From assembly GCA_029243485.1 (NCBI GenBank), contig JAQWRY010000075.1, positions 186,001-250,000 of the forward strand: DNA of 64,000 nt, written 5' to 3'. Shown here one piece after another: positions 3,976-59,623 of this stretch. A program made the position numbers and the translations under genes. Positions within the stretch are counted from its first letter, which is position 1, and each line of letters opens with the position of its first letter. This stretch comes from Candidatus Binatia bacterium (GTDB lineage Bacteria; Desulfobacterota; Binatia; UBA12015). The notes under the pieces are model-generated. The model saw only the letters and a program-made list of their open reading frames with translations, did no database searches and was not told where the DNA came from.

Positions 3976-5049
3976 TCAGTTCGCGCGCAACAAGAAGGTC
4001 GCGCCCTGGTGCGCGAACTCGACCTGTTCGGGTAAGATGCGCTTGACAGTCAAGCCCTGGTAGCTCTCGCCCTCGCGGACCTGCGTCATCGCCGGGTTTC
4101 CCTCGACGCTCATGTAGGCAAACCGGCGTCCGGGGTTGCTCGAGTACTGCAGGATGTTGATTCGAACCTGAGGCGCGCTGCTCGGGGGCCGTCGGAGGCC
4201 CTCGTCCGTCGGCCCGCTCGCTGACAGAACCAGCGGCTCTCCGGAGACCGGAGCAGGCGCCGGTGGCGGCGCTCGAACGATGGCCGGCGCAGGCGCCGGC
4301 GCGGGCCGAACGCCCGGAGCCGGCGGGATTTCACGCTGCGGGCGCGGGGCCGTCGGGTCGTACGTACCGGTGACCGCGTGCGCGCCCTGGGCCATGCGCT
4401 CTTCTTCACGCACGAGCCGCCGCTCTGCGGAGGCCGCCTTCCTCTCCATGCGCGCGATGTTGCGGGTCTGGCGGAACTCCGTCAGAAGCTCCTCGCGCTC
4501 CTCAGGCGTCCCAGCCGAACGGATGGCCTCTCGAAGCCCTTGCGACTCCTCCCGCTTGGCGAAGCGATTCTCGCGCCGGCCAGCACGGTCCTCACGCCGC
4601 GCCATGACGCGCTCCAGGACGCGGCGACGCTTCTCGCTCATCGGCTTGTGCTTCACGGCGGCCGGCGCGTTGTCGAGGGGGGGGGCCGCCTTGACCTCAC
4701 GGGACACGCGCTCGGGGCGAGCAACGGGAACTCGCTCCTGCGGCGGCGGTCGCGTCGGCTCGACTCGCGCCGGCGGGGCCGGCTCCGGCTCCACGACGGC
4801 GGCGACTTCTAGCGGTTCGGCCACCGCTTCGGCCTCGACGGTCTCTTCCGTTCGCGTAGAGGACCCGCCACCGCTCAGTTCCAACCCGCCTGCGAACGCA
4901 CCGACAAGAGCGATCAGGCCGAGAGCGATCCACAGAAACCGGGGCCCGCCCTTCCGAGGAGGCCGCGGGGGTCCGTCGCCGAAGCTCCCGGCGCCGTCGG
5001 GCGCATCACCGTCCTGTGCCTTCCGAAGAGCGTCGAGGACGGTGCTCAA
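3976..5049 (-). CDS. gspB: GspB/ExeB-like general secretion pathway protein
   Basis: 357-residue inner-membrane protein. It begins MSTVLDALRKAQ, the usual GspB/ExeB cytoplasmic start, followed by one membrane segment at about residues 38-58, a long Pro/Ala/Arg-rich periplasmic linker with a charged helical stretch, and a C-terminal domain at about 290-357 (INILQYSSNPGRRFAYM, EGESYQGLTVKRI, ATFLLRAN) typical of the family. GspA-GspB complexes help insert or assemble the type II secretion secretin through peptidoglycan. The start overlaps the gspA stop by 4 nt (ATGA), showing a two-gene operon. No other type II secretion gene is in the window. Confidence 0.85.
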   Translation of the reverse strand: MSTVLDALRKAQDGDAPDGAGSFGDGPPRPPRKGGPRFLWIALGLIALVGAFAGGLELSGGGSSTRTEETVEAEAVAEPLEVAAVVEPEPAPPARVEPTRPPPQERVPVARPERVSREVKAAPPLDNAPAAVKHKPMSEKRRRVLERVMARREDRAGRRENRFAKREESQGLREAIRSAGTPEEREELLTEFRQTRNIARMERKAASAERRLVREEERMAQGAHAVTGTYDPTAPRPQREIPPAPGVRPAPAPAPAIVRAPPPAPAPVSGEPLVLSASGPTDEGLRRPPSSAPQVRINILQYSSNPGRRFAYMSVEGNPAMTQVREGESYQGLTVKRILPEQVEFAHQGATFLLRAN

Positions 5050-6959
5050 CGCACGGCTCCGCTGGCAATCACGTTCGCGGGAGCGCCCTTCGAGCGCTGA
5101 GAACCGAGGTGTGGCACGCGATCCGATGCCGCCATCCCGTACAGCGCGATCATCGTCATCGGCCCGACCTTGCCGTCCGCCTCGAGGTGAACCCCCCTCT
5201 GAAACTCCACCACCGCCTCCTCCGTCAACGCGTCGAACTGATCACCACCGGGACCCTCGTAAACCCCGGCCACCTGCAAGAGGTCGTGCAGGCGCCGTAC
5301 CTTCGCGCCCGCGATGCCGCGGCTCAGCAAGCTTCCCAGCTTTTCGACGTCGTACCACAGCACATGGCCCTGGCCGAACCAGACCTCCGACAGAACGCTG
5401 TGGGAGACCTCGATCCGCTCCTGCCCCAAGCGAACGTAAGCCATGCGGTCATCGACGCGATCAACCATCCCGAAATGCACGCCCGACCCATCCCCGAGAT
5501 CCAATTCCAGGATGACCGGAAGGTCGAGGACCCGCAGCACGTTCAGGTTACCGGTGAACTCGAGGTAATCGAGCCCACGCCGCCGGGCGATCGCTGGAAG
5601 ATCGAGCCTATGACTCGCCGCCTCCGCCGCCGAAAGACGGTCGCCGTTCCAGACCCCGACCAGAGATTCCACCGCTTCGTACGCGCTCTCACTTGCGGTG
5701 GTCTGCCGAAGAGCATCGCTTAGCGCTGCGCGCTCGATCCAGCGCGAATCGGGCACCGGAGCCGGCACCTCGGGTTCCGCGGCCACGACCGACATCGGCC
5801 CTCCGGGCGGCACGTAGCCGTGCGACACGGGGACAGCAGCCACGGGCGGGTCGACTTGCCCTGCGGGCCATGGTTCGAAGCTCGGCGTGAGCGGGTGCGG
5901 GGCGACTCGCGGCTCGGACGCAGCGGCGGGCAGCGGCGCGGCTGGGACACGGTCGATCGCATCGAGCATCTGCGCGACGTCCCGACTGTCGCTGCTCGCG
6001 GCGCGGCCAGGCTCTTGCGTGAACGAGATCGAGCGGGCCCCGAACTCGTTGAACCCCCAGACCCCGGCGCCTCCGAGAAACGCGGCAAGGACGAGTCCGG
6101 CCGCCATCGCAGCCCACTGCGGAATCCGACGCGTAGGCTCCGAACGACGGCGCCGCGGGCTTTCGATCTCTTCAATCGCACGCTTTACGATCGAGCTCGT
6201 GATCGACGTGGAGTCGCGCGCGTACGCGACGAGCAGCGCGCGGTGGCAGACGACATTGATCCGCCGCGGGATCCCCTGACTGTACGCGAAGACACGTTTC
6301 TGAGCGCCCGACGAGAGAATGCGGCGAGGGCGTCCACCCGACGCCGTAGCCAGGCGGTGCCCGATGTATTGCCCGGTCTCCTCACGGTCGAGCGGCCCGA
6401 GGTGCCAGCGCACGGTAATGCGCTGCTCGAGCTGAACGAGGTCCGGTCGCGCCAGGATGTCGCGAAGCTCGGGCTGTCCGACCAGAACGATCTGTAGAAG
6501 CTTCGCGCTCTCGGTCTCGAAGTTCGACAGCATGCGGAGCTGTTCGAGGATCGCACCGCCGAGCGCCTGGGCTTCGTCGATGACGAGCACCACCTGATTG
6601 CCGGCCTGCTTCTGGTCGAGAAGGAACGTGTTCAGGGCGACGAGCAGATCGCGCTGCGTGCCCTCCTCGCGCAACCCCAGCTCGTGGTTGATCTCCTGGA
6701 GAAGCTCGACGCCACTCAGGACCGGATTCAGGATGTAGGCGTACCGCGCGTTTTCCGGCGGGTCCGACAAGAACGAGCGCAGGATGGTCGTCTTGCCTGC
6801 CCCGATCTCCCCGGTGATCGCCACGAAACCGGCGCCTTCCTCCAGCCCGTACACGAGGTGCCCGAGGGCCTCCTTGTGCTTGGCTGACAGGAAGAGATAG
6901 CGGGGGTCCGGGGTGAGCCGGAACGGTGCCTCCTCGAATCCGAAGAATCTCTCGTACAT
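5046..6959 (-). CDS. gspA: GspA/ExeA-like AAA ATPase with peptidoglycan-binding domain
   Basis: 637-residue partner of gspB. The family-typical MYERFFGFEEAPFRLTPDP start fixes the ATG at 6959. Walker A is GEIGAGKTT (residues 50-58) and Walker B is VVLVIDEAQAL. An AAA_22-type ATPase fills about residues 1-270, followed by one membrane segment near 295-315, a Pro-rich linker, a C39-peptidase-like periplasmic fold (LEFTGNLNVLRVLDLPVILEL to GHVLWYD), and a C-terminal peptidoglycan-binding domain (FDALTEEAVVEFQRG, EADGKVGPMTMIALYG). ATP hydrolysis in the cytoplasm is thought to remodel peptidoglycan contact for secretin assembly. It is first in the operon; the downstream gspB overlaps by 4 nt. Confidence 0.88.
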   Translation of the reverse strand: MYERFFGFEEAPFRLTPDPRYLFLSAKHKEALGHLVYGLEEGAGFVAITGEIGAGKTTILRSFLSDPPENARYAYILNPVLSGVELLQEINHELGLREEGTQRDLLVALNTFLLDQKQAGNQVVLVIDEAQALGGAILEQLRMLSNFETESAKLLQIVLVGQPELRDILARPDLVQLEQRITVRWHLGPLDREETGQYIGHRLATASGGRPRRILSSGAQKRVFAYSQGIPRRINVVCHRALLVAYARDSTSITSSIVKRAIEEIESPRRRRSEPTRRIPQWAAMAAGLVLAAFLGGAGVWGFNEFGARSISFTQEPGRAASSDSRDVAQMLDAIDRVPAAPLPAAASEPRVAPHPLTPSFEPWPAGQVDPPVAAVPVSHGYVPPGGPMSVVAAEPEVPAPVPDSRWIERAALSDALRQTTASESAYEAVESLVGVWNGDRLSAAEAASHRLDLPAIARRRGLDYLEFTGNLNVLRVLDLPVILELDLGDGSGVHFGMVDRVDDRMAYVRLGQERIEVSHSVLSEVWFGQGHVLWYDVEKLGSLLSRGIAGAKVRRLHDLLQVAGVYEGPGGDQFDALTEEAVVEFQRGVHLEADGKVGPMTMIALYGMAASDRVPHLGSQRSKGAPANVIASGAVR

Positions 6960-7079
6960 GAGCTTTGCTGGTGGACGACAGTCGCCCACCCGGGATTCAA
7001 TTAAGAGGAGCGGCGGGGAAGCTGTCAAACAGACCGCCTTGTCTGCAGCGAGGCCTGCTGGCACAAGGGGCCGGAGCCC

Positions 7080-7715
7080 ATGGCCAACGAGTGGTGGCAG
7101 CAGCTACCGGCCGACGAGCGCCGGGAGTATCAGCGGAGCGAAAAGCTCTCGAAGGTCCCCCTGCCCCCGGACCCCTGCTTGGGCAAGATCGCCCTAGCCA
7201 TCGACCGGGCCCTGGCCTCCGAGAACCGCCTGAAGGCCGAGGGGGCGTCCCAAGCCCTCGTGGATCGCCTGAGTCGGCGTCTGTCGATGCCGAGCGCGAC
7301 GATCCGGGTGCAGGGCCGGCGACCGCCCGATGGAGAAGGCGAGCTCCACGGCATCTACCGACCGGCCGAGGGCACCGAGCAGGATCAGATCAGCGTCTGG
7401 ATGCGGACCGCAAAGCGAGCGGACGTCGTGGCCACGCGGACGTTCCTGCGCACCCTCCTGCACGAGGTGGGCCATCACCTCGACATGCGGCTGCTCGATC
7501 TGCCGAACTCGTATCACTCCAGAGGCTTCTACCAGCGCGAGGCATACCTCTTTCGGATCATCACGAAGGGTACGGCGCTCGCGCCGGGAGGGACGGCCGA
7601 ATCACCGCGAGAGCCTGCTGTGCCGCCGCCCCAAGTCGATGTGCAGCGCGGACTCGCGCTGCTCCGCGCGACCGTCGACAAGATCGAGGGCCGCTCGCAA
7701 AAGGAAGAGTCCTAG
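7080..7715 (+). CDS. Zincin-like putative metallopeptidase (HEVGHH)
   Basis: 211 residues, no signal peptide, so probably cytoplasmic. A single HExxH zinc site lies at residues 128-133 (LLHEVGHHLDM) inside a predicted helix, followed by a conserved-looking LPNSYHSRGFYQREAYLFR stretch that may supply the third ligand. The N-terminal ~75 residues are charged and helical; the C-terminal ~40 are Pro- and charge-rich. It resembles uncharacterised deltaproteobacterial proteins more than any named peptidase family. It is divergent from gspA (120 bp between starts) and converges with the helicase gene, overlapping its end by 4 nt. Confidence 0.7.
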   Translation: MANEWWQQLPADERREYQRSEKLSKVPLPPDPCLGKIALAIDRALASENRLKAEGASQALVDRLSRRLSMPSATIRVQGRRPPDGEGELHGIYRPAEGTEQDQISVWMRTAKRADVVATRTFLRTLLHEVGHHLDMRLLDLPNSYHSRGFYQREAYLFRIITKGTALAPGGTAESPREPAVPPPQVDVQRGLALLRATVDKIEGRSQKEES

Positions 7716-54429: not shown

Positions 54430-55800
54430 TCACTTCTTGGCCACGAGAGTCTTGAAAACGTGCCAGCTCTTCAACAACTCGAGTGCCCGATCCAGCTGTG
54501 GGTCCTGGCCGAGCTCGCCGAGCACCCCGCTGGGGGCCGCCGCGGCCTGCTTTTCGGGCTGCGCGCCCTCCTCGTCATCATCGTCGTCCGAGCCGTTCTC
54601 GTTCTCGAGATGCTTCGGGAGATTCGCCTCGCGCAGGAAGTCCTGCGGAAGGGGCCGTCCATCTTGGCGAACCAGGCGGACGTTGTTCTCCATCTCGATG
54701 TCCGGGACGATTCCCGTCGCCTGAATCGAGCGACCGCCCGGCGTGTAGTAGCGCGCGGTCGTGAGACGGATCGCGGACGAGTCGTCGAGCGGCAGGATGG
54801 TCTGGACCGACCCCTTGCCGAACGTCTGGGTGCCGAGCACCAGAGCACGCTTGTGATCCTGCAGAGCTCCGGCAACGATCTCGGCTGCGCTCGCCGTTCC
54901 GCCGTTCACGAGAACCACCATCGGGAAGTCGGTGGAGCTACCCTGCTTGTGCGCGAAGTACTTCTGGTTCTGACTGTCGAGGCGACCGTCGGTGTAGACG
55001 ATCATGCCCGAGTCGAGGAACTCGTCCGTCACCTTCACCGCCTGCGACAGCAAGCCACCGGGGTCGTTGCGAAGATCGAGGACCAGGCCGAGGATCGCGC
55101 CGCCGTTGGCGGCGGCGATCTCACTGAGGGCGTTGTCGACGTTCTGCGCGGTTCGTTCCTGGAACTGGGTAATGCGAACGTAGCCGTACCCGTCGCCGAG
55201 GTCGCGCGATTTGACGCTCTGGATCTGGATGTCTTCGCGCGTGATCGTAAAGTCGATGAGATCTGCGGTGCCCTCGCGCTTGACCGAGATCTTCACCTTC
55301 GAGCCGGGCGGACCGCGCATCTTCTTGACGGCGTCCATCAGGGCCAGGTCTTTGGTGAACTCGCCCTCGATCTTGATGATCTGGTCGCCGGGCTGGATAC
55401 CCGCGCGATACGCCGGGGTGTCCTCGATCGGCGAGACGACGGTCAGCACGCCGCTTCGATTGGTGATCTCGATGCCGAGGCCGCCGAAGCTGCCCTTCGT
55501 GTCGACCTGGAGCTCCTTGTAGAGCTCGGGCGTGAGGTAGGCGCTGTGCGGATCCAGGGATCCGAGCATGCCGTTCACCGCGCCTTCGAGAAGCTCCTTG
55601 GTGCCGACTTCCTCGACGTAGTTCTTCTGAACGATCGTCAGAATGCTGGTGAACGTCTCCAGCCGGTCGTAGGCATCACCGCCGACGGCGGAAACTCCCT
55701 GAACCGCCCTGCCACCAGAAAACAGCACTGCCATGATCAGGCCGAACGCCAACATTGTGAGCCACGCCCGACGGCGCGACTTTCGTACGCGTCCGGTCAT
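54430..55800 (-). CDS. ctpA: C-terminal processing protease (S41, CtpA)
   Basis: 456 residues from the ATG at 55800. A membrane anchor (AWLTMLAFGLIMAVLF) is followed by a helical domain, a PDZ domain (about 100-185; GGLGIEITNRSGVLTVVSP), and the S41 core with catalytic Ser304 (NGGTASAAE) and Lys329 (GTQTFGKGSVQ), RNDPGGLLSQAV before it. The C-terminus has an acidic run (DDDDDEEG) and a helical end. Acts in the periplasm on murein hydrolases and lipoproteins. It is just downstream of the FtsX-EnvC fusion on the same strand, the usual ftsE-ftsX-envC-ctpA order. Confidence 0.92.
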   Translation of the reverse strand: MTGRVRKSRRRAWLTMLAFGLIMAVLFSGGRAVQGVSAVGGDAYDRLETFTSILTIVQKNYVEEVGTKELLEGAVNGMLGSLDPHSAYLTPELYKELQVDTKGSFGGLGIEITNRSGVLTVVSPIEDTPAYRAGIQPGDQIIKIEGEFTKDLALMDAVKKMRGPPGSKVKISVKREGTADLIDFTITREDIQIQSVKSRDLGDGYGYVRITQFQERTAQNVDNALSEIAAANGGAILGLVLDLRNDPGGLLSQAVKVTDEFLDSGMIVYTDGRLDSQNQKYFAHKQGSSTDFPMVVLVNGGTASAAEIVAGALQDHKRALVLGTQTFGKGSVQTILPLDDSSAIRLTTARYYTPGGRSIQATGIVPDIEMENNVRLVRQDGRPLPQDFLREANLPKHLENENGSDDDDDEEGAQPEKQAAAAPSGVLGELGQDPQLDRALELLKSWHVFKTLVAKK

Positions 55801-55930: not shown

Positions 55931-57484
55931 TTAGCTTTTCGGGGCGCCTGCGACCCAGTCGAGGGGATCCACCGCGCGTCCTCGATGGCGGACCGAAAAG
56001 TACAAGAGACCGGTACCCGCTCGGGCGACCGTCTCTCCCGCATCGACTTCCTGGCCGACGCGGACGCGCGACGGGCCGATCTTCGCGTAGACGCTGTAGG
56101 TTCGACGTCCGTGGTCGATCACGACGACCGATCCGGAGCCCGGCAGCTGACCGGAGTATGCGACCCGTCCCGGGGCACTCGCCCGGACGGACTCGCCTCG
56201 GCGCGTGCGAAGCGCGACGCCGTTTCGAAAGCCTGCGGTTCCGGGTTTCCGACCCGCCTGCCCGTACCGAACGACCACCGTGCCCTGGACCGGAGCCTGA
56301 CGGGGGCCGATCGCGGGGCCCAACAGCCGCGTAGAACGGAGCACCTCGCGAAGGCGGAGCCGTTCTTCCGCCAACGCCGCGCAGCGCTCTTCTGCCCCAC
56401 CGAGCGCCACTAGATCCTCCGCTCGTTTCGCCGAGGCGATACGGAGCAGAACCTCGTCGTCGTGCGCCGAGGCGACGACGGCCTGCAGCTCCGTCGTGGC
56501 CAGACCCTTGCGCGCGACGTGCAGCGTCCGGCGGCAGACCGCGAGATCTCGCGACAGCGCGCGTAGGAGGACCGCATCCCGCGCGGGTCCTGGCTGCTGC
56601 GTTCGCGCCTCCAGATCGGGCGGTCCGAGCGCCGTCGCTCGAGGCGCGGGCACAAAGACGAGCAGGCAGGCAAACCCTGCCAGAACCGTCGCACGAGCCG
56701 CCTCCGCGACCACGCGACGGGCGGCGCCGAACGCGAGTCCCAACGTGCCGACGAGAAGCGCGACGACCGCCGCAAGCATCCACCATCCAGGAAAGGCTGC
56801 CTCGCCGGGACCGGCGAGGACGAGGAGCGCCGCCGCGGAGAACGACAGCAAAGCCCCCGCCAGGGCAACACCACCAACGACGAGTCCGAGCGGCCCCCAT
56901 AGCCCTTCCGCCTCGGCACCGAGGAGAACGCGAACGCCAATCTCGTCACGGCATTCTCGTCCCGCGGCCTGCGTCGTCGTGATCGCCGCGGAAACAAACA
57001 CGACGCAGCCCAGAAGAAGGAGGCCGCCGCCGGCCAGGCCTTCACGCAAGGCGTTGGTGGAAGTGAGCTTGGCGCGGTCCGCTGCGTTCAGATCGATCAC
57101 GTCAACAACCCCGGCCGCCGCGCCCAGGAGCCCATCCGTCGACCCGGACCGGCCGACAGGGACCAGTACCTCGAACACCGCGAGGTGCTCCGGCCCGGTT
57201 TCCGGCGGCCCGGTCTGCGCGAGGATCTCTCCGGCGCGCCGTTCCGCGAGGATCTCAATACCCGACACGAGCGCGAGGTCGCCGCGCGCGGCTTCGGACT
57301 CGGCAGCCCGCACGACGACGTAGTATCGGGCTCCCTCCGGAATCCGTTTCGCGAGACTCTCCGCACGGGCGAGCAACATCGCGCCGACGCTCATGGCGCC
57401 GGCGGCGAGGAACGCGACCGCGAACAGCAAGCCGAGCGATCCGCGCAAGCGGCGAAGCGGCAACCTGCGTCCGTCGAAGTTCAA
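55931..57484 (-). CDS. FtsX fused to an EnvC-like LytM-domain protein
   Basis: 517 residues in one frame; TTG start 6 nt after GAGGAG, 10 nt from the ftsE stop. Residues 1-~257 are FtsX-like: TM1 (19-38), a periplasmic domain (~40-150), TM2-TM4 (about 150-255) with DEIGVRVLLGAEAEGLWGPLG between TM2 and TM3. A fifth hydrophobic segment (265-285, ending RATALG) has the form of a signal peptide and leads to a helical/coiled-coil region (288-385) and a LytM/M23 domain (~400-512). That domain lacks the zinc ligands: NGV replaces the HxGxD region and LLYFSV the HLHFEV. EnvC is degenerate in the same way (LYFEI). An in-frame GTG at residue 258 (56711-56713) could give a separate EnvC. Confidence 0.85.
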   Translation of the reverse strand: MNFDGRRLPLRRLRGSLGLLFAVAFLAAGAMSVGAMLLARAESLAKRIPEGARYYVVVRAAESEAARGDLALVSGIEILAERRAGEILAQTGPPETGPEHLAVFEVLVPVGRSGSTDGLLGAAAGVVDVIDLNAADRAKLTSTNALREGLAGGGLLLLGCVVFVSAAITTTQAAGRECRDEIGVRVLLGAEAEGLWGPLGLVVGGVALAGALLSFSAAALLVLAGPGEAAFPGWWMLAAVVALLVGTLGLAFGAARRVVAEAARATVLAGFACLLVFVPAPRATALGPPDLEARTQQPGPARDAVLLRALSRDLAVCRRTLHVARKGLATTELQAVVASAHDDEVLLRIASAKRAEDLVALGGAEERCAALAEERLRLREVLRSTRLLGPAIGPRQAPVQGTVVVRYGQAGRKPGTAGFRNGVALRTRRGESVRASAPGRVAYSGQLPGSGSVVVIDHGRRTYSVYAKIGPSRVRVGQEVDAGETVARAGTGLLYFSVRHRGRAVDPLDWVAGAPKS

Positions 57485-57494
57485 TGGAGACTCC

Positions 57495-58178
57495 TCACGA
57501 GGCCTCCGACGCGGCGGCGCCGCTGGAGTCCCAGGCGACTCGTCCCTGTTCGAGGAACAGAACGCGGTGCTCGCCGAGACCAAGCAACCCGGGCTCCTGG
57601 CTGGCAACAATCACCGTCGCACCCTGCGCGGCCTGTTCCGCGAGCAGCCGACCGACCCGCTGCCGGCCGACCGGATCCAAGCCCGCGGCCGGCTCGTCCG
57701 CGATCAGCAGCTTCGAGTCGTCTCGCGCGAGGGCCCGCGCCAGGCAGACCAGCCGGCGCTCCCCCGCCGAGAGGGAGCCTGCGGAGCGATCGGCCAAACC
57801 GGCGATGCCCACCCGCGCCAACGCCTCGCCGGCGCGCTCGTGCACCTCACCAAGGAACGCTTCCTGGAGCTCGAGCGCCAGAGCCACGTTCTGGATCACA
57901 CTGCGATCCTCGATCAACAGCGAGTGCTGAGGAACGATCGCCAACCGTCGCCGGTGGGCGGCGAGCACATCGCTCGCAGTGGGAGCGAGCGGAAGCCCGT
58001 CGACCGTGATCCATCCCCGCGTCGGCGCTTCCAAACCGCACATTAAACGCAAAAGAACGGATTTGCCGGCGCCCGCCGGGCCCGCGATCACCGCAGGTTC
58101 CCCGCCGAGCGAGAGCGTGACGTCAGCGAGAACTTCCCTCGCTCCGTACGCACGCGCCACGTGAAAGAAACGAACCAT
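57495..58178 (-). CDS. ftsE: FtsE-like ABC transporter ATPase with altered H-loop
   Basis: 227 residues. Walker A GPAGAGKSV (33-41), Q-loop Gln84 (IVPQH), ABC signature LSAGE (136-140), Walker B LLIADEP (158-163) and D-loop AGLD. The H-loop reads VASQEP where FtsE has ATHD, so Gln194 replaces the switch histidine. The partner gene follows at once. In divisome biology FtsEX uses ATP to steer EnvC-type activators of murein amidases; here the ATPase is predicted, but weakened or altered hydrolysis is possible. The Lgt-TlpA gene lies 179 bp upstream. Confidence 0.85.
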   Translation of the reverse strand: MVRFFHVARAYGAREVLADVTLSLGGEPAVIAGPAGAGKSVLLRLMCGLEAPTRGWITVDGLPLAPTASDVLAAHRRRLAIVPQHSLLIEDRSVIQNVALALELQEAFLGEVHERAGEALARVGIAGLADRSAGSLSAGERRLVCLARALARDDSKLLIADEPAAGLDPVGRQRVGRLLAEQAAQGATVIVASQEPGLLGLGEHRVLFLEQGRVAWDSSGAAASEAS

Positions 58179-58357: not shown

Positions 58358-59623
58358 CTAATTCCCGTCGGGCCCGCGCACCCACCGACCTTCGTCGATC
58401 AGGGTGCGGAGGTCCTTCTCGATCTGGGGATCGGTCCAATCCCTCGGCCCGATGTACCGGGCAACCTGCTTGCCCTTGCGGTCGATGATGAACGTCTCGG
58501 GATAGCCCGTGATGCCGTACGCGCGACCGACCGAGCCCGTGGGATCGATCAGCACGGGGAACTCGATCTTCATCTCGTCCACGAACGCCTGGACCTTGCT
58601 GGCATCGTCATCCTCGCTCACCGCGATCATGACGAAGCCCTGCCCGTCCAGTCGCTTCGCGAGACGCTGCATGGCCGGCATTTCCTCGCGACAGGGTGGG
58701 CACCACGTGGTCCAGAGATTGAGGAACACGACCTTGCCTCGATGCTGCGTGAGCCGCATCGCCTGGCCCTTCAAGTCTTGGGCGACGAACTCGGGCGCGG
58801 TCTTCGGACCGCTACAACCCAAGACCGAAACGGTCAGCAACACGGCGACGGCGGGCGCCAGCGCCGCCGGCCGCCTCACCCACAACAGACCGATCGCTCC
58901 CGTCGCGATGGTCCCAAGCCCGATCCATTGCGCCTCGGTCAGATCGAGCCAGAGACGCGGCTCGATCCGGATGAACTCGACGAGGAAGCGCGCCACTCCG
59001 GTCAGCAGCAAATACGCGAAAAAGGGTGTGCCGTCCGCCTGTCGACTCGTGTCGCGCGATAGATGAAGGAGCCACAGGAAGATCCCGGAGTACATGAGAC
59101 TCTCGTACACCGGCGCCGGCTGCACCAAGACACCCGGAGCGTAGTCCCATCCGAAGATCGCGCGCGTGTACGCCATGGCCCACGGCAGGTCCGAAACGTG
59201 GCCCCAGTCGCCGTCGCCGGAGAGCTGGCAGCCGACACGGCCGATGGCCTGGCCCAGCACCAGTCCGACCATCACGGAGTCCGCGACCGCGAGCCACGGA
59301 AGGCGCCGCAGAAGCACGTAGGCCGTGACGGAAAAGGCCCCGCCGATGAGCCCCCCGTACCAGACGAACCCCGCGCCGCTGAAGATGAAATCCAGGGGCG
59401 AGTCGAGGAACTGGCTCCAGTCGTTCGCCAGCGACAGGATGCGCGAGCCTATGATCCCGCCGATCGCCGCCCACCAAACGATGGACGATGCGTGCCGACG
59501 GTCCAGGCCACGGGCCTCGAGTTGGTTTCCGACCACGGCACCGCCCGCAAGAAAACCGAGGGCCAGCATCGCGCCGAAGCTGTAGAGCGCGACTGGCCCG
59601 AGTTGAAGCAGAACGGGAACCAT
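58358..59623 (-). CDS. Lgt-like prolipoprotein diacylglyceryl transferase fused to a TlpA-like thioredoxin lipoprotein
   Basis: 421 residues in one frame. Residues 1-~248 are a seven-membrane-helix Lgt homologue of the divergent type: FVWYGGLIGG replaces the HGGL region and GRVGCQLSGDGDWG replaces the GRxGNFxNGExxG signature. Residues 250-270 then form a lipoprotein signal (RRPAALAPAVAVLLTVSVLGC) with lipobox VLGC, Cys270. Residues ~275-421 are a redoxin with the CPPC site at 308-311 (LWTTWCPPCREEMP) and GITGYPETFIID. An in-frame GTG at residue 249 (58877-58879) would start a stand-alone lipoprotein. Lgt lipidates lipoproteins in the inner membrane; TlpA-like proteins reduce or shuffle disulfides outside. 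Start ATG at 59623. Confidence 0.85.
   Translation of the reverse strand: MVPVLLQLGPVALYSFGAMLALGFLAGGAVVGNQLEARGLDRRHASSIVWWAAIGGIIGSRILSLANDWSQFLDSPLDFIFSGAGFVWYGGLIGGAFSVTAYVLLRRLPWLAVADSVMVGLVLGQAIGRVGCQLSGDGDWGHVSDLPWAMAYTRAIFGWDYAPGVLVQPAPVYESLMYSGIFLWLLHLSRDTSRQADGTPFFAYLLLTGVARFLVEFIRIEPRLWLDLTEAQWIGLGTIATGAIGLLWVRRPAALAPAVAVLLTVSVLGCSGPKTAPEFVAQDLKGQAMRLTQHRGKVVFLNLWTTWCPPCREEMPAMQRLAKRLDGQGFVMIAVSEDDDASKVQAFVDEMKIEFPVLIDPTGSVGRAYGITGYPETFIIDRKGKQVARYIGPRDWTDPQIEKDLRTLIDEGRWVRGPDGN

Follow-up and report, generated by a model that had tools for sequence, protein, structure and literature searches.

An FtsX-EnvC fusion gene in one family of Binatia and the possible drift of an amidase activator out of ATP control

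A single open reading frame from Candidatus Binatia bacterium joins a divergent four-helix FtsX, by way of a short hydrophobic segment, to a helical hairpin and a LytM domain free of zinc ligands, and lies between ftsE (upstream) and ctpA (downstream). The frame was found in a 64,000-nucleotide stretch (GenBank assembly GCA_029243485.1, contig JAQWRY010000075.1, positions 186,001 to 250,000), referred to here as the window, and its features are listed in Table 1. The fusion, the loss of motifs, the shortening of the helical region, and the loss of genes at the locus are read directly from the sequences. As an explanation we favor, with slightly more confidence than doubt, an amidase activator that is drifting out of ATP control, in which FtsX has been joined through a former EnvC signal peptide to a shortened EnvC-type activator.

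Table 1 Features of the fusion locus, in window coordinates
Feature	Coordinates	Strand	Basis
ctpA, S41 protease with PDZ	54430..55800	(-)	Family matches; start chosen by eye
ftsX-envC fusion gene, 517 codons plus stop, TTG start	55931..57484	(-)	Open frame, translation, same fusion in five other genomes
Degenerate LytM (M23) domain, zinc ligands replaced	55949..56314	(-)	Pfam, structure matches, alignment
Helical hairpin, residues 300-384	56333..56587	(-)	Structure model; about half the length of the class EnvC helical region
Fifth hydrophobic segment, about residues 264-283, signal-peptide-like, core 12 residues	56636..56695	(-)	Hydrophobicity; g6 EnvC alignment
FtsX TM2, cytoplasmic coupling segment, TM3, TM4, about residues 134-257	56714..57085	(-)	Hydrophobicity, profile, model; model confidence low from residue 177
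FtsX periplasmic domain, about residues 47-133, beta-alpha-beta pattern, without FtsX_ECD match	57086..57346	(-)	Model, profile comparison, Pfam
FtsX TM1, about residues 14-46	57347..57445	(-)	Hydrophobic core; helix 10-46 in weak model
ftsE, Walker A/B present, LSAGE signature, H-loop His replaced (VASQEP)	57495..58178	(-)	Motif reading, family match
lgt-tlpA, second polytopic-plus-secreted fusion, invariant lipobox-like Cys	58358..59620	(-)	Start chosen by eye

Both the frame and its translation were read. GAGGAG stands six bases 5' of the TTG start, and 10 bases separate the fusion gene from the end of the ftsE frame. A whole-chain structure model, built from four aligned rows, had a mean pLDDT of 65 and contained TM1, a beta-alpha ectodomain, further helices, the hairpin at residues 300-384, and a LytM fold; a separate model of the hairpin and LytM domain was better (pLDDT 75.5). 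The first-pass annotation of this DNA had described one frame joining a four-helix FtsX to a helical region and a degenerate LytM domain, with ftsE and ctpA on either side and five hydrophobic segments. That description stands: the same fusion occurs in six genomes, both neighbors were identified by family matches, and all five segments were seen, the fifth being short (core of 11 to 15 residues).

The unbroken fusion was present in six of the 14 genomes of the family, spread over four genera: the window's genome (G000) and G001 in g1, G005 in g3, G010 in g4, and G007 and G011 in g5. That homologues might always be split at the junction had been raised in the first-pass annotation; fused homologues were found in all five of the other genomes, the matched stretch being stop-free in each and the one TGA in G011 being the gene's own terminal stop. 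Two further genomes carried the parts at contig ends, G003 (g1) as two halves on two contigs and G006 (g4) as the FtsX half. In G008 and G012 (g6), a 263-residue frame contained the EnvC part alone. G002 and the g2 genomes (G004, G009, and G013) gave no fusion match at an E value of ≤1e-10, and in G002 ctpA lies at a contig end. Alignments of the full fusion were made without G002, G003, and G006. A trivial explanation would be that an assembly or sequencing error joined two genes. The family members are all draft assemblies, but the same open frame in six separate assemblies rules this out for practical purposes, and we give it almost no weight. Profile matches to both halves likewise rule out a chance open frame.

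Among 148 genomes of the class, matches spanning both halves were obtained only from the six fusions. A search of 395 genomes drawn from the phylum, which scored three candidates per genome and could miss diverged or independent fusions, returned 28 matches at an E value of ≤1e-25, of which only the window's own spans the fusion. Viral contigs yielded 49 pattern matches and no relative, and a search of genome contigs found three loci, all from genomes already in the sample. A 910-residue frame in G055 was considered as an FtsX-EnvC fusion and rejected when FtsX was found in another frame. Among the loci and genomes examined, the window's family is thus the only one to show the fusion. The literature searched, whose coverage ran to neither subscription papers nor preprints, yielded no report of FtsX and EnvC fused in nature.

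Unfused relatives were read at 29 loci drawn from four further families within the class, representing 29 of the 66 non-family genomes matched in the 148-genome search. At every one of these loci ftsX and envC occupy separate frames, and envC lies in a constant frame offset to ftsX, so one small indel of a single type near the junction can merge the two. A possible envC start at the four-base-overlap position was present at 16 of the 29, where starts are not settled. ctpA and ftsE were each found at 28 of 29 loci, the exception for ftsE being a contig that begins inside ftsX. Two rows were dropped: L131, whose contig starts inside ftsX, from the FtsX and FtsE counts, and L049 (G004), which is another M23 protein.

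By profile comparison, the N-terminal half is homologous to FtsX over the ectodomain and TM2 to TM4. A profile of four fused FtsX halves matched a profile of 28 class FtsX proteins with an hhalign E value of 5.9e-9 over 219 columns. In Pfam, the FtsX half of the window protein had no FtsX match, and that of G010 matched PF02687 above the cut-off (29.3 versus 25.5 bits). FtsX_ECD (PF18075) matched in none of the 14 family genomes and in all six class relatives scanned; within the window's genome, the FtsX_ECD search for a second, conventional FtsX gave 0 matches. The ectodomain is only modestly shorter in the fusions (107 to 128 residues) than in relatives (120 to 137 residues), with overlapping ranges. 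M. tuberculosis FtsX was the Foldseek match of rank 50 for the whole-chain model (E value of 4.3e-3).

The C-terminal half matched Peptidase_M23 of Pfam at residues 419 to 507 (E value of 3.4e-18), and its best NCBIfam match was EnvC (E value of 4.4e-17), at 62 bits and thus under the full-length cut-off of 270. Foldseek placed EnvC chains of V. cholerae and E. coli first for both the whole-chain and the hairpin-LytM models, and the LytM domain is nearest to EnvC by sequence as well as by fold (closest PDB chains, 8i6o, 4bh5, 8c0j, and 8tzl). The fusions were scored at the canonical LytM zinc-ligand positions, and all six that were aligned have other residues there, as had been reported for the window protein at first pass. 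Judged from these matches and the alignment, the C-terminal domain is an EnvC-type LytM that has lost its zinc ligands.

The helical region that precedes it measures 84 to 121 residues in the six fusions and 107 in g6, compared with 231 to 494 (median, 235) in 29 class EnvC proteins. By length it is about halved, and the long coiled coil plus regulatory helices of EnvC were not found in the fusions. The helical regions of fusions and class EnvC gave no local alignment; the part lost may be the restraining arm or the coiled coil. In E. coli, two FtsX X-lobes grip one EnvC coiled coil (PMC11139282), and the groove that receives the amidase is blocked by a restraining arm preceding LytM (PMC12505981). 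We infer that autoinhibition may have been lost in the fusions.

The client expected of such an activator is in place: every one of the 14 family genomes had an Amidase_3 match, that of G001 as two partial matches. The LytM part is predicted to activate this Amidase_3 enzyme at the septum. In the window's genome, the only Amidase_3 match (L114, 829-2184) is an amidase with an AMIN domain and matches the structures of AmiC, AmiB, and AmiA; by eye, its neighbors look like mutS and glnD.

Complete ABC ATPase motifs, including the H-loop His, were not found in the family FtsE as aligned. The H-loop His is present in none of six (SQ or SR replaces it), the signature Gly in two, and Walker A in four, whereas all three are kept in 28 of 28 unfused relatives, a comparison in which the six are related by descent and do not count as independent events. 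Not every motif favors decay, since Walker B is intact in all 34 proteins (6/6 and 28/28) and the Q-loop Gln is kept in all six family members, with five of the 28 relatives deviating. Outside the family, FtsE of family f4 has Glu for the Q-loop Gln at five of five loci (L041 to L043, L046, and L126), with the other motifs all kept. TIGR02673 (FtsE) was the best match for the window protein and three more family FtsE proteins, all under the cut-off (135 to 148 of 264.85 bits). Estimates of dN/dS, for which synonymous sites were near saturation in several pairs, were 0.11 to 0.36 for FtsE and 0.11 to 0.31 for LytM and under 0.6 in all pairs computed. FtsE, FtsX, and LytM all show purifying selection, which for FtsE in the six genomes that encode it argues that it does something and is no pseudogene. 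From its motifs, family FtsE may bind ATP but should hydrolyze it poorly. An E. coli FtsE mutant that binds ATP without hydrolyzing it strongly enhances the activation of AmiB by EnvC, as stated in part of PMC11139282.

These observations bear on whether the fusion could be an intact, permanently linked FtsEX-EnvC machine in which the ATP cycle of FtsE drives the LytM domain of the same chain. Consistent with such a machine, ftsE is directly upstream and coupled, Walker B survives in six of six and Walker A in four of six, FtsE is under selection, and the coupling segment is identical at 21 of 26 positions between the window and G001. We nonetheless consider it unlikely in light of the missing H-loop His and signature Gly, the halved helical region, and the g5 loci, which have no ftsE (see below). 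Stoichiometry also speaks against it. The E. coli complex consists of two FtsE, two FtsX, and one EnvC in the account given in sections of PMC11139282, so an uncleaved fusion, with FtsX and EnvC at 1:1, would differ from a complex that has one EnvC per two FtsX. The first-pass annotation had gone further than the architecture and proposed a permanent link, a fixed FtsEX:activator ratio, and an ATPase-to-hydrolase signal made intramolecular. The E. coli stoichiometry speaks against the second of these being useful; the third is undercut by the motif losses, the lack of FtsX_ECD matches, the short helical region, and g5. The first is unproven, since the joining segment looks like a signal peptide.

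The core of this fifth segment is 11 to 15 residues long (median of 12 in seven sequences). Its length was similar to that of 29 class signal peptides (median, 13; P = 0.47) and shorter than that of 24 control FtsX helices from the fusions (median, 20; P = 0.006). Moreover, the stand-alone EnvC of g6 begins its alignment with the fusion profile at position 263, where the segment starts. In length and alignment, the joining segment therefore resembles a retained signal peptide of EnvC. A small-residue site, [AV]xA, occurs in four of seven segments, 20 of 29 signal peptides, and 16 of 24 control helices; because such sites are common in the control helices too, the motif lends no support to cleavage. 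The neighboring gene has a similar build: a hydrophobic segment connects Lgt with a TlpA-like thioredoxin domain and includes a lipobox-like Cys that all 11 family sequences conserve. This suggests that the operon makes use of internal signal peptides. On this evidence we lean, if only slightly, toward the view that signal peptidase I cuts the chain at the fifth segment. In other families, tblastn spacing would place Lgt and TlpA in a single frame in L041, L042, and L044 but not in L043, L046, and L126.

If signal peptidase I does cut there, the product could simply be a co-translated polyprotein whose FtsX and EnvC parts then act separately, much as in E. coli. The Bradyrhizobium cytochrome b/c1 precursor provides a precedent, and the core lengths, the N-terminal signal peptide made by the homologous segment in g6, and the conserved Cys of the adjoining Lgt-TlpA all fit. 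Such a polyprotein is, in our estimate, quite improbable: a specific cleavage motif is missing, and normal ATP control would leave the decay of FtsE unexplained. Drift out of ATP control, the reading that we favor, also allows a cut at the fifth segment but adds the loss of that control. It seems very unlikely that the EnvC part is translated on its own, with ribosomes starting at an in-frame codon within the fusion. An ATG, GTG, or TTG is found in frame at or within 30 codons before the segment in seven of seven sequences, but these candidates are mostly GTG or TTG, their position varies between sequences, and a Shine-Dalgarno-like tetramer lies upstream in only two of seven and not in the window's gene (in G003, only 12 bases are readable before its first candidate).

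The locus differs among the genera of the family. ftsE precedes the fusion in g1, g3, and g4. In both g5 genomes the locus has no ftsE, and the fusion comes immediately after Lgt-TlpA; in both g6 genomes EnvC alone takes that place. Other genes lie between Lgt-TlpA and ctpA in the two g2 genomes read, where no FtsE, FtsX, or EnvC match was found. By eye, these genes (L158, 4202-7448; L159, about 4010-7271) appear to encode a periplasmic iron-binding protein, an FTR1-type permease, and a cytochrome c. Elsewhere in the FtsE-less genomes, none of the seven best FtsE-like matches has FtsE as its closest family, each being nearer to MlaF, MacB, GlnQ, or LolD, and G007 and G009 had no FtsE-like match at an E value of ≤1e-24; with completeness of 88% and 70%, the g5 genomes may still have an ftsE elsewhere. 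FtsZ was present in 14 of 14 family genomes.

In the CtpA tree, a four-protein tree, and a quick LG+G4 tree (the last without G013, which had too few columns), the family formed one clade with a poorly resolved base. g5 and g6 were weak sisters in the four-protein tree (87.6/53); in the LG+G4 tree, g5 was outermost and g6 inside. A single clade of the fused genera was rejected (p-AU, 0.0009) in a test that used a short search and a group named after the four-protein tree had been seen, and this favors a single fusion early on. Most simply, the genes fused once and losses came afterward in g6 and g2, although repeated fusion is possible. Under the single-fusion account, g6 would have reverted the internal segment to an N-terminal signal peptide.

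The series might be read as a septal amidase activator breaking free of its ABC motor step by step: FtsX and a half-length EnvC fused, the FtsE motifs decayed, ftsE was lost while the fusion stayed (g5), FtsX was lost and an N-terminal signal peptide regained (g6), and finally the whole set was lost from the locus (g2). We find this sequence of events plausible, if somewhat more doubtful than not. Were it true, the FtsX-EnvC chain of g5 would activate the amidase without any ATPase. The series could also be taken to mean that the gene is merely decaying, with FtsX a relic nearing loss and the fusion no more than a carrier of the LytM domain. The FtsX half is the least conserved part (dN/dS of 0.20 to 0.58), the g5 halves give no clear match to class FtsX (hhalign E value of 0.05, against 7.3e-10 with the other fused halves), and g6 and g2 have no FtsX at the locus. 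Still, no pair computed reached a dN/dS of 0.6 and the frame is open in six genomes, and we regard simple decay as highly improbable.

Under loss of ATP control, our preferred explanation, two adjacent genes would have merged, probably once, in the ancestor of the family. The product would insert as a four-helix FtsX, with the fifth segment sending the hairpin and LytM domain out into the periplasm; there, the groove of LytM would bind the cell's Amidase_3 enzyme and activate it at the septum. ATP control would have decayed as FtsE, still with Walker B and mostly with Walker A, lost its H-loop His and mostly its signature Gly and as the coiled coil through which FtsX moves EnvC became about half as long. 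The activator would then probably be set by its amount and position and not by the ATP cycle. The activator could be kept switched on by an FtsE that binds but barely hydrolyzes ATP. A shortened EnvC may not have to be released, in which case FtsE could be dispensed with, as in g5.

Model organisms vary in what septal peptidoglycan cleavage requires of ATP, and PMC11139282 gives binding for P. aeruginosa and E. coli, hydrolysis for M. tuberculosis, and no nucleotide for V. cholerae. For this question the family offers a natural deletion series, comprising a fused chain, an FtsE without the H-loop His, and sister genera without ftsE or without both ftsE and ftsX.

The fused system shares with FtsEX-EnvC of E. 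coli, P. aeruginosa, and V. cholerae an FtsE encoded beside FtsX, a four-helix FtsX, a degenerate LytM domain, and an Amidase_3 enzyme in the genome. It differs in having FtsX and EnvC in one chain, an FtsE without the H-loop His, an ectodomain unmatched by FtsX_ECD, a helical region of 84 to 121 residues, and an implied FtsX:EnvC ratio of 1:1, as opposed to the 2:1 given for E. coli in part of PMC11139282. The 29 unfused ftsE-ftsX-envC-ctpA loci of the class have the same gene order and a degenerate LytM, with Lgt and TlpA upstream in six, but keep two frames, intact FtsE motifs, and a long EnvC helical region. FtsEX-PcsB and FtsEX-RipC are likewise Type VII ABC pairs that control a periplasmic hydrolase or activator, and in them the partner protein is separate. 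A parallel in build is the Lgt-TlpA of the same operon, which also combines a polytopic membrane protein, a signal-peptide-like segment, and a periplasmic domain in one chain; its lipobox-like Cys marks a lipoprotein-type site, and its domains are unrelated to those of the FtsX-EnvC fusion.
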